NCBI GenBank assembly: GCA_947460245.1
Contig: CANHGL010000009.1
Span: 1 to 64,000 of the forward strand
Source of the DNA: Sphingobacteriales bacterium
GTDB lineage: Bacteria > Bacteroidota > Bacteroidia > Chitinophagales > JADIYW01
Direction of reading: 5' to 3'
DNA length: 64,000 bases
Positions within the stretch are counted from its first letter, which is position 1. The number at the start of each line of letters is the position of its first letter. Made by a program: the position numbers and the translations under genes. This document shows positions 13,873-23,100 of this stretch, one piece after another. Under the pieces are notes generated by a model, which saw only the letters and a list, made by a program, of their open reading frames with translations, ran no database searches and was not told the origin of the DNA.

Positions 13873-13926
13873 TTACATATTAGTATATTTTATAACTTTA
13901 TAGTTAAACATATTAAGTCCAATCCT

Positions 13927-15123
13927 ATGAAGAAAATTTTATTTTTTTATTTTTTGTGTTTAGGGTATTCTGTTTTTGCTCAGTACCAGATTGGAAATAC
14001 AAAAATCACTTTTAAAGATAACACCAGAGGCAACCGCAACATACTTACTTTTATCTATTATCCTGCAAGTACTGGTGGTACGGACGTTCCTATTGCTCCT
14101 GATGCTGCTAAATTTCCGGTAATTTCTTTTGGTCATGGATTTGTGATGTCGTCTTTGGCCTATCAATGGATTGCAGAAGCATTGGTGCCTTATGGATATA
14201 TTATTGGTTTTCCATCAACAGAAGAAGGTGTGCCGCCCAATCACAGCGACTTTGGAAAGGATGAAGCCTTTGTTGCTAGAAGCCTCAGGAATCTGGGAGA
14301 TTCTGTCAATTCTTTTTTATACAACAGAACAAATGGTTATTCTGCAATAGGAGGGCATTCTATGGGTGGTGGTGCAACATTTTTGGGTATGCAGAATGTG
14401 ACGGACATTACTACTTTTTTTAATTTTTCAGCTGCTGAAACCTTCTTAACAGAGTCTGCCGTTCAGACTGCAAAATTATGTTCCCAACCGGCTTTGGTAT
14501 TTACGGGTACAAAAGACTGTGTAGCGCCACCGGCAGGAAATAGCCGTTTTATGTATAATAATCTTATTTCATCCTATAAGTTCTTTGCTAATATCCACGA
14601 TGCTTCTCATTGTCAGTTTGGTGATCCTAATAAAACTCCATGTGAAGTTGGTGAGGCGGCAGCTTGTTCCGGAAGGGTTTACATTTCAGCAGCAGAGCAA
14701 CAACGCCGTGTACTTTTATTACTTAAGCCCTGGCTGGATTTTTGGATAAAACGAGATTGTGCCGCGCTTTCTACTTTCTACAGTAATATTTCCGGAGCTA
14801 TAAATGATATAGACACGCTACAGTCCAAGATCATGGATTGCACTGCCATCGATATTCCTAATGCCCTTCAACAGCATAAAACTATTAAAGCTTTAATTTT
14901 TCCTAATCCTTCCAAAGGCAGATTTAGTATGCAAATTTCTGAGATATATTCAGAAGCAGTGGTAACCTTATTGGATGTAAAAGGTAGTATTATCAATTGT
15001 AAAATAATTAAAGGTCAAAAAAATATCCCCCTAGATTACTCTAATCTGCCGGGTGGTGCTTATCAAATAGTTGTAGATACAGATCGAGGAAGTTTTACCT
15101 CAACAATTGTAATCTCTCAGTAA
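13927..15123 (+). CDS. Secreted alpha/beta hydrolase with type IX sorting domain (chlorophyllase/PETase-like fold)
   Basis: A 398-aa exported ester hydrolase. Signal peptide residues 1-19 end in VFAQ. The hydrolase core carries the nucleophile elbow GGHSMGGG (S145), the acid in TGTKDC (D197) and the histidine in DASHCQFGD (H228). GHGF near residue 69 fits the oxyanion region. Several cysteines suggest disulfides. Residues about 320-398 form a Por/type IX secretion C-terminal domain (FPNPSKGRFSM..., ending TSTIVISQ), so the enzyme should be exported to the cell surface or medium. The order of motifs resembles chlorophyllase and cutinase/PETase-like hydrolases. The substrate is unknown. Confidence 0.88.
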   Translation: MKKILFFYFLCLGYSVFAQYQIGNTKITFKDNTRGNRNILTFIYYPASTGGTDVPIAPDAAKFPVISFGHGFVMSSLAYQWIAEALVPYGYIIGFPSTEEGVPPNHSDFGKDEAFVARSLRNLGDSVNSFLYNRTNGYSAIGGHSMGGGATFLGMQNVTDITTFFNFSAAETFLTESAVQTAKLCSQPALVFTGTKDCVAPPAGNSRFMYNNLISSYKFFANIHDASHCQFGDPNKTPCEVGEAAACSGRVYISAAEQQRRVLLLLKPWLDFWIKRDCAALSTFYSNISGAINDIDTLQSKIMDCTAIDIPNALQQHKTIKALIFPNPSKGRFSMQISEIYSEAVVTLLDVKGSIINCKIIKGQKNIPLDYSNLPGGAYQIVVDTDRGSFTSTIVISQ

Positions 15124-15187
15124 TTATAATTGGGTATGTTTTTCATTTTTTAGTTGGCCTATCTGATTCGTAGTTAAATTACTATTA

Positions 15188-15216
15188 TATCTGATTTTTT
15201 TTAAAAAAATTAGATA
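15188..15216. repeat. AT-rich inverted repeat between hydrolase and glpD
   Basis: TATCTGA followed by eight T, seven A and TTAGATA forms a near-perfect palindrome (one G-T wobble) in the 190-bp gap. It may be a weak bidirectional terminator or a protein-binding site. It lacks a GC stem, so the role is uncertain. Confidence 0.3.
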
Positions 15217-15313
15217 AAGTAAAATCAAGAAAATATATCTTTATAAGGAAGAACAGTAACTGCTATTGTTTCTCTTTATTTGAAATTGGAAACTCTATAA
15301 TACCTATCCTCAG

Positions 15314-18751: not shown

Positions 18752-20056
18752 ATGAAAAAAATAATTTCTTCTCTATTGTTATTATTAGCAATACATCTTT
18801 ACTCTGTGGCTGATAATTTTTTAGTAAGCTATGAGTTGGTTAATGCGCACTCTAAAGCAGATCTTAATGCATTATGGAAAAAAAATAAGATTCCAAAGGT
18901 TATGTTGCCAGTTCATTATGGTGTGGATGTTTATGAAGTGGTGTATAATGCAAAGTGGATAGATGGAAGTTTTAGAAAGGCCTCTGGTATTGTTTTTGTT
19001 CCTAAAGTTAAAAAAGGAAAATCGGTGCCAACGGTGATGTATGGTCATGGTACAGCAATCCATAAAAGCAGAGAAATTTCAACGTCAGATGCGCAGCAGG
19101 GGATATGCATTGGATTTGCTACTGATGGATATTTAGCGCTATATCCGGACTATTTTGGAATAGGCAAGGGGGAAGGTAATCACTTGTATCAGCATGCAGA
19201 AAGTGAAGCTAATGCATATATTTATTTATTATATGCTGTAGAAGAATTGAAAGATAAATTACAGATAAATTCTAACGGACAGCTTTTTTTAACTGGCTAT
19301 TCACAAGGAGGACATTCTAGTTTTGCTGCTCAAAAATATATTGAAGCGCTTAATGATCCACGCTTTAAGGTTACTGCTTCTTCTCCGATGAGTGGTGCTT
19401 ATGATATGACTGGAGAACAAGAGAAATATATGTTCCAGGAATATCCCCGTCCATTCTATTTGCCATACTTGTTGGTTTCCTATCAGGAGGCTTATCATGT
19501 TTTGGATATTGATAATATTTATAAGATTTTTAAATCTCCTTTTGATACATTATTACCTAAGTATTACACTAATAATTTTGATAAGACATTAGATGATTTA
19601 GATAAGATTATGCCTAAGGTTCCAAAGGATGTTGTAATAGATTCTTTGGTGGAAGTATATAAGAAAGATCCTAATTTTCTATTTACTGTAAAGCTTAAAG
19701 AAAACAATCTGACTTCGTGGAAGCCCATAGCTCCGGTACAACTATGTTATTGTAAGGGTGACAGGGAGGTGAATTATAAAAACTCTGAAGTTGCTTATTA
19801 TACGATGAAATCTTTAGGGGTAAATTCGATTAAGCTAAAAAATTTAAGCGACCAATTAGATCATAATACTTGTGCCTTGTTCGCTGTTCTATCTACCAAA
19901 TACTTTTTTGACAGATATAGAAAACATGGCAGCAATCCAAAGATGAAGGACGTACCTCGTTTTAAGAATGCGCTTGCAAATATTGTAAAAAAGAAAGAGG
20001 AGCAGAAATATTTGAACTCTCATCAGGATGTAAGTTATGTTCAAGGAAAAAAATAA
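18752..20056 (+). CDS. Exported alpha/beta hydrolase (secretory lipase / prolyl-peptidase-like)
   Basis: A 434-aa exported hydrolase. The N-terminus MKKIISSLLLLLAIHLYSVADN looks like a signal peptide. VMYGHGTAIHK resembles an oxyanion-hole segment, LTGYSQGGHSS is the nucleophile elbow, an acidic residue occurs in CYCKGDREV, and the histidine is probably in QLDHNTCALFA. This arrangement fits fungal-type secretory lipases (LIP family) and related esterases. There is no type IX sorting domain at the C-terminus, so it probably stays in the periplasm or envelope. It is followed after 6 nt by a crotonase gene, suggesting an operon. The substrate is unknown. Confidence 0.8.
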   Translation: MKKIISSLLLLLAIHLYSVADNFLVSYELVNAHSKADLNALWKKNKIPKVMLPVHYGVDVYEVVYNAKWIDGSFRKASGIVFVPKVKKGKSVPTVMYGHGTAIHKSREISTSDAQQGICIGFATDGYLALYPDYFGIGKGEGNHLYQHAESEANAYIYLLYAVEELKDKLQINSNGQLFLTGYSQGGHSSFAAQKYIEALNDPRFKVTASSPMSGAYDMTGEQEKYMFQEYPRPFYLPYLLVSYQEAYHVLDIDNIYKIFKSPFDTLLPKYYTNNFDKTLDDLDKIMPKVPKDVVIDSLVEVYKKDPNFLFTVKLKENNLTSWKPIAPVQLCYCKGDREVNYKNSEVAYYTMKSLGVNSIKLKNLSDQLDHNTCALFAVLSTKYFFDRYRKHGSNPKMKDVPRFKNALANIVKKKEEQKYLNSHQDVSYVQGKK

Positions 20057-21771: not shown

Positions 21772-22236
21772 CTATTCCGGCTTAACGCCATATTTTCTAA
21801 TGAAATTTTCTTCAGCAGCATTATAAGCGATGTCAAATGGTTTTTCTTTGATGCTTATATCTTTGAATAGAGCCTGTATTTTTGATTTATATTCCTTATT
21901 GTCAAGGCTTGGATCTTCAACATAATTTAATAGTTGTTTGTATTGATTTTCAGATACACTTAAGAAGTAGGAGAATAAATTTACAGTAGCTTTTTTATAA
22001 TATTCTTCTTGGTTATAGGCAGGAGTACTGTCTAAAATGGCGATACTTTTTTTTATCTGAAAGTTCAGTATCCTGAGATTTAAATCAGAAACACTCGTTT
22101 TATAAACATATATTTCTTGTCCAATTTTAGCTTGCTCTTCTTTTATGGTTTTATAATACGCTGTTGCTTCAAAATTTCTTTGCCCATAGGTTAGTCCCGA
22201 AATATTTAAGAGCAATAAGAGTAGTGACCATTTCAT
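21772..22236 (-). CDS. Exported protein of unknown function
   Basis: A 154-aa protein with signal peptide MKWSLLLLLLNISGLTYGQ, then an all-helical, charged mature part without cysteines or a recognisable catalytic motif. The layout (two long helices, conserved aromatic positions) resembles small surface proteins of the LIC11966 type, but this is a weak guess. The box TATCTTTA ends exactly 4 nt before the ATG, so the message may be leaderless. It lies 42 nt downstream of a lipase gene on the same strand. Confidence 0.75.
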   Translation of the reverse strand: MKWSLLLLLLNISGLTYGQRNFEATAYYKTIKEEQAKIGQEIYVYKTSVSDLNLRILNFQIKKSIAILDSTPAYNQEEYYKKATVNLFSYFLSVSENQYKQLLNYVEDPSLDNKEYKSKIQALFKDISIKEKPFDIAYNAAEENFIRKYGVKPE

Positions 22237-22240
22237 AGAG

Positions 22241-22248
22241 TAAAGATA
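22241..22248 (-). promoter_or_regulatory. -7-like box 4 nt before ATG
   Basis: TATCTTTA (one mismatch to TAnnTTTG) is followed by CTCT and the ATG of the exported-protein gene. Spacing is identical to the boxes before the genes at 24912, 31439, 31521, 50842 and 56535. Confidence 0.4.
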
Positions 22249-22278
22249 TTAATTAAATTTAAAAATGGATTGTAGGGC

Positions 22279-23100
22279 TTAGTGCTTATTCTCTTTTAAG
22301 TCGTGTATTATATCTGCTATGAATTTTTTTGCGTCAAACTTTGGATTTCCAAAGAATTGTGTTAATCCTACCATATCAGCATGACTAACGGAACTTGCCT
22401 CATCGGATTGTATTAATCCTTTGTAATTTCCCCATTTACTGGATTCGATTCCTACCATACCGTCATTTTTTCCTTCATAGGGTCTAATCACATAGGCAAT
22501 CGTTCTCCATAATATATTTGGGTATTCTTTGTTTATATGACTGGCATAACTTTGATAATAGATTTGTTTGGAGTCTATTACTTCTTCATTGAATATTTTC
22601 ATAGCCTCTGTGGTAACTTGAAATACGGCCTTTAGGCTATCAGGTCTCTTATCGCCCATTATAGTTGCATATAGATTTACCAATCTTGCTGTAGCAAACT
22701 TAGGTAAGGGTAGCCGTCCTAAAATGATATCGGCAAGGTGAGTACCCCGATGCGGTGAACCCAATGTTGTAATACTTGAGATATGCTCCTCCATATCTAA
22801 TTTGCTTGCCATATATCTGGCTTCCAATCCACCTTTTGAATGACCTATAATGTTAATCTTTTCTTTCTTTGTTTTCTCAAGGATGTCTAATATCCTGTAT
22901 TTTAATTTGATTGCATTATCTGGTATAGAAATAAATGCTTCCTGATTTGCTGTATATACATCACAACCATGTTGTTTCAAATAATCAGGAATATTGGTCC
23001 AGTAATTCATTAATCGGTTCTGATCATGAAATCCTAATCCACTTACAAGAATTACAGGATATTTGGTATTACAATAGGATAGTGAAGTTGTGATATTCAT
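22279..23100 (-). CDS. Lipase family alpha/beta hydrolase
   Basis: A 273-aa triacylglycerol-lipase-like protein. PVILVSGLGFHDQNRLMNYW provides the oxyanion loop, IIGHSKGGLEARYM the nucleophile elbow (S88), TTLGSPHRGTHLAD is the conserved strand-turn after it, NDGMVGIESSKWG carries the acid, and SHADMVG the histidine. This matches bacterial family I lipases. No signal peptide is visible at the ATG start (MNITTSLSYCNTKYPVI), so it may be cytoplasmic or exported by another route. A small exported-protein gene follows. The 229-bp upstream gap, shared with the DAHP synthase gene, shows no clear -7 box for this gene. Confidence 0.85.
   Translation of the reverse strand: MNITTSLSYCNTKYPVILVSGLGFHDQNRLMNYWTNIPDYLKQHGCDVYTANQEAFISIPDNAIKLKYRILDILEKTKKEKINIIGHSKGGLEARYMASKLDMEEHISSITTLGSPHRGTHLADIILGRLPLPKFATARLVNLYATIMGDKRPDSLKAVFQVTTEAMKIFNEEVIDSKQIYYQSYASHINKEYPNILWRTIAYVIRPYEGKNDGMVGIESSKWGNYKGLIQSDEASSVSHADMVGLTQFFGNPKFDAKKFIADIIHDLKENKH

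Follow-up and report, generated by a model that had tools for sequence, protein, structure and literature searches.

A Predicted Type IX-Exported Ester Hydrolase of Bacteroidota Related to PET Hydrolases and Provided with a Different Pocket

The gene at positions 13927–15123 (+ strand) of the window, i.e., the whole 64,000-nucleotide stretch of Sphingobacteriales DNA analysed here, is likely to encode (with a probability of roughly two in three) a type IX-exported serine carboxylester hydrolase acting on an ester that is non-aromatic, smaller, or more polar, and not on PET. The protein is predicted to share its fold with PET hydrolases and belongs to a clade of its own, in which the aromatic residue that helps those enzymes to clamp PET is replaced. 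Both esterase activity and substrate class are inferred.

Gene and Domain Organization

The gene (13927–15123, +) is an intact open reading frame of 398 aa with an ATG start and without internal stop codons, and the opposite strand is closed by many stops; all the features described below lie on the + strand. Promoter and terminator signals of the region showed no excess over shuffled sequences. A predicted Sec signal peptide, recognized by eye and by conservation, covers residues 1–18 (13927–13980) and reads MKKILFFYFLCLGYSVFA followed by Q, with a hydrophobic N-terminus ending in A-Q and a presumed cleavage before Q19; since A18 and Q19 are each kept in 28 of 30 relatives from the order, the signal peptide proposed in an earlier note on this DNA is borne out.

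The alpha/beta-hydrolase catalytic domain follows at residues 19–285 (13981–14781), as indicated by homolog alignments and by PF12740 ("PETase"), the best Pfam match (residues 43–237, 41.1 bits against a cut-off of 28, E = 1.8e-10). This E value, together with a 65% identical ortholog in the corresponding position of another genome, indicates that the hydrolase match is not due to chance. Two other profiles remain below their gathering scores in the window protein. The first is Chlorophyllase, PF07224 (24.0 bits against 26), a weak match due to general alpha/beta-hydrolase similarity, in which only part of the domain is aligned (residues 59–153). An enzyme that is chlorophyllase-like or phospholipase-like (PAF acetylhydrolase II), cleaving acyl or phytyl residues off lipids or pigments, would agree with the finding that PF07224 matches 15/15 and 27/27 scanned homologs (best 1.3e-11) and PF03403 8/15 and 11/27 of them; however, PF12740 matches far better (to 2.4e-25) and such matches are expected anyway between related members of the superfamily, which makes this assignment improbable. 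The second profile is PF12146, "serine aminopeptidase S33" (24.7 against 27), which weakly matches all the scanned homologs and could point to a peptide-cutting (S33-like aminopeptidase) or acyl-transferring enzyme instead of an ester hydrolase; besides the low score, the breadth of PF12146, a family also holding monoacylglycerol-lipase-like enzymes, speaks against this possibility, which is very remote.

Type IX Secretion

The C-terminal type IX sorting domain suggested earlier was recovered at residues 324–396 (14896–15114) by two profiles, PF18962 (Por_Secre_tail, matched over all 75 profile positions with 35.7 bits, cut-off 27) and the NCBIfam model TIGR04183 (27.0 against 23). The same genome, of 2.2 Mb in 85 contigs, codes for SprA (2419 bits), the sortase PorU (1275 bits), and three proteins of the PorV family (the best with 386 bits), and it has about 40 sorting-domain matches over the cut-off; on these grounds the window protein is a well-founded predicted cargo of type IX secretion, type A. 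The sorting domain is also found in 13/15 order homologs and 21/27 class homologs scanned.

The enzyme would be made with a Sec signal peptide and fold in the periplasm with disulfide bonds; the type IX system would then carry it across the outer membrane, where the PorU sortase would remove the C-terminal domain and the enzyme would be either released or fixed to the surface.

Polyester hydrolases of Bacteroidota with this kind of sorting domain do exist, as the earlier note had stated: PET27 from Aequorivita and PET30 from Kaistella jeonii are PET-active esterases carrying it (PMC8767016). In particular, PET30 (PDB 7PZJ) and PET27 share with the window protein the signal peptide, a PETase-superfamily hydrolase with GxSMGG, the Por sorting domain, and the bacterial phylum (PMC8767016). 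In contrast, PET30 has only 20% core identity to the window protein and shows PGF, TN, GWSMGG, and a clamp Tyr in place of HGF, TE, GHSMGG, and Ala.

Relationship to PET Hydrolases

The comparison of a 15-member family profile with the PDB gave, among the top matches listed, nearly all PET hydrolases (best E = 9.8e-26), with an alignment that starts ahead of the oxyanion loop and reaches the catalytic His, and hhalign of the family against five PET hydrolases reached 99.2% (2.6e-19). On the basis of these profile matches, common ancestry and a common predicted fold with PET hydrolases can be considered secure. The distance is nevertheless considerable: over 187 core columns, the window protein is 19–27% identical to solved PET hydrolases, and the mean core identity amounts to 50% among family members, 45% among the PET hydrolases compared, and 26% from one group to the other.

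Phylogenetic placement, which had been recommended as a check, put the protein outside the PET hydrolase clade and not with PET30. In a tree without an external root, based on 187 alignment columns and including partial PDB sequences, the 57 family members, which come from the order and the class, form one clade (ultrafast bootstrap 97, stem 0.72) that is separate from IsPETase, from cutinases, and from type IX PET hydrolases of the PET30 type. PET30 groups in another clade (bootstrap 100) with L050, L051, and L052, PET30-like PET hydrolase candidates in other Bacteroidia genomes that score 150–177 bits to PF12740 and have GWSMGG and P and W at the key positions.

About one in four of the 399 genomes searched in the order contain the catalytic domain, according to our own count of long matches; relatives in the order are mostly 32–49% identical to the window protein, the closest being the 65% identical ortholog. 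In a sample of 295 genomes from the class, PF12740 matches bearing this signature are frequent, and a few more distant members were found in other classes of the phylum, where the search with a full-length profile was swamped by sorting domains and the count of catalytic domains is consequently too low. A scan of genome contigs found one relative, and none was found in the viral contigs searched. Family members vary in length, some of them having SprB repeats or Ig-like, PKD, fn3, or P-proprotein domains, and all show the same N-terminal layout. Neither the PDB nor the literature searched yielded a characterised member, and the family is apparently a large, unstudied Bacteroidota side branch of the PETase family.

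Active Site and Substrate Pocket

The GHSMGG nucleophile with matching Asp and His described in the earlier note is confirmed at the level of alignment: S145 in the nucleophile elbow GHSMGGG (G143–HSMGGG149, 14353–14373), D197 (with C198 at 14515–14520), and H228 (with C229 at 14608–14613) align with the PETase triad by HMMER and hhalign, and a triad geometry can be inferred for them. These residues belong to a set that is invariant in 57/57 family members: H70, G71, F72, H106, H144, S145, M146, G147, A170, T172, D197, H228, C229, and C239. An AlphaFold2 model obtained from a two-sequence alignment (window protein and L036) had a pLDDT of 38.

The surroundings of the triad are characteristic of the family. 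The oxyanion-hole motif is H70-G71-F72 (14134–14142), at the place of PG[F/Y] in PET hydrolases; a T98-E99...H106...D112 loop (14218–14262), a family signature, occupies the place of the PETase subsite loop, with T98, E99, and D112 present in all 57 members except one; and A170-E171-T172 (14434–14442) is located where PET hydrolases carry the clamp Trp or Tyr. In contrast, position 70 is P in each of the 13 PET hydrolase sequences, position 99 is N or I, and position 170 is W or Y; at the site of IsPETase W185, 57/57 family members carry Ala. The one exception in the loop, L068:1423-2619, is the earliest-branching member of the family; it keeps HGF, H106, and H-C and has V98, Q99, and Q at 112, the last being typical also of most PET hydrolases.

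The likeness to IsPETase, the type I/II PET hydrolases, and cutinases is restricted to triad order, the Met following the catalytic Ser, and the aromatic oxyanion residue F72, the only clamp aromatic in common; the GHSMGG motif of the window protein is likewise type I-like. In IsPETase-type enzymes, subsite I is instead formed by an aromatic pair, Y/F and W (PMC5785972, PMC12442448); the window protein has the first partner, F72, and A170 in place of the Trp, and the subsite loop is changed as well. It is mainly because the second clamp partner is Ala that PET is doubtful, and on sequence grounds unlikely, as the substrate. The earlier interpretation is partly supported: type IX export and an alpha/beta serine hydrolase belonging to the PETase/chlorophyllase superfamily agree with the data, and a PETase-like active site does not, given Ala at the W185 position, HGF, and E99/H106/D112.

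The lack of W185 is no proof of missing polyesterase activity, since type III PETases hydrolyse PET without the two-aromatic clamp (PMC12442448). HaloPETase1 (type III, PDB 9HL5; phmmer E = 1.2e-5 to the window protein) is active on PET in spite of lacking the usual clamp; its nucleophile motif is GHSQG, and its oxyanion and W185 positions are taken by Thr and Tyr, respectively (PMC12442448); in the window family the arrangement is reversed, with Phe and Ala, and the disulfides are at other places. A true polyester hydrolase, of the PET27/PET30 type or similar to type III, could thus use a different clamp on natural polyesters (e.g., cutin) or PET. Besides HaloPETase1 and the type IX-exported PET27 and PET30 (PMC8767016), this explanation can rely on the closest solved relatives, which are PET hydrolases, and on F72 and M146, two of the three subsite I residues. 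However, it is unlikely, as the family forms its own clade with a long stem and low core identity, the Trp/Tyr clamp is uniformly Ala, and the charged E99/H106/D112 replace the subsite loop.

Cysteine Residues and Putative Disulfides

The several cysteines mentioned in the earlier note amount to eight in the mature protein: C185, C198, C229, C239, C247, C278, C305, and C358. Raw counts of co-occurrence over 55 sequences, uncorrected for kinship, suggest the disulfide pairs 229–239, 198–246/247, and 217–305. C229 and C239 (14641–14643) are present in all 55 sequences. C198 occurs in 42/55 and is accompanied in 40 of these 42 by C246 or C247 (C247 at 14665–14667 in the window protein), which are found in just 1 of the 13 sequences without C198. 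C217 occurs in 46/55 sequences, always with C305, and six of the nine lacking C217 also lack C305. The three exceptions, having C305 and no C217, include the window protein, with C305 at 14839–14841, and its closest ortholog; C185 (14479–14481) occurs only in these two, in which the partner of C305 may have been replaced to give 185–305. C278 (14758–14760) is kept in 93%. A C198–C217 pair was also considered and rejected because the two residues do not co-occur. The Cys203–Cys239 pair is missing at the IsPETase positions; the window family instead has the invariant Cys next to the catalytic His (His+1), with another presumed partner.

Genomic Context

The gene is placed between TsaD and a GlpD-like FAD enzyme, with a long ORF, which we read as putatively TamB-like, before TsaD, and L-glutamate gamma-semialdehyde dehydrogenase and a second alpha/beta hydrolase after the GlpD-like gene; the closest ortholog has the same surroundings in its genome. 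TsaD was found in six genomes of the same genus; in four of them (L082–L085), the hydrolase gene (window 13873–15300 compared) is missing and the GlpD-like gene comes next after TsaD. Since the TsaD-GlpD order holds in these sister genomes with no homolog between, the gene is accessory, gained or lost at a stable place. For the same reason, an operon with GlpD, using glycerol released by a lipase, was discarded. No recurrent functional neighbour was found among the homologs, housekeeping neighbours being common to close relatives only, and the gene surroundings thus give no clue to a substrate.

The second alpha/beta hydrolase, three genes downstream (18752–20056, +), is a secreted protein of 434 aa with GYSQGG; its Pfam matches (PF03583, secretory lipase) all remain sub-threshold, and it has none in NCBIfam. 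A LIC11966-family surface protein (21772–23100, −) adjoins a further lipase-like alpha/beta hydrolase.

Proposed Function

In the proposed mechanism, H228 and D197 would activate S145 for its attack on the ester carbonyl, and the backbone of F72 and M146 would provide the oxyanion hole, in a pocket unlike that of PET hydrolases. Since this pocket lacks the Trp clamp and has a Glu/His/Asp loop, the substrate may be a lipid, an acyl sugar, or an aliphatic ester. As for the clade as a whole, it seems reasonable, with somewhat less confidence than for the single protein, to regard it as a separate, Bacteroidota-wide group of type IX-exported ester hydrolases of common descent with PET hydrolases and with a natural extracellular ester as substrate, having its own pocket (HGF, the TE...H...D loop, and Ala for Trp) and its own set of disulfides around the catalytic Asp and His.

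Because of the Pfam name "PET hydrolase-like", screens for plastic-degrading enzymes will catch such proteins; the signature consisting of HGF, T-E, H-C at the catalytic His, and Ala at the Trp position tells this family from enzymes of the PET27/PET30 type. Once tested, these exported esterases, a widespread group in Bacteroidota, would have a substrate assigned to them.
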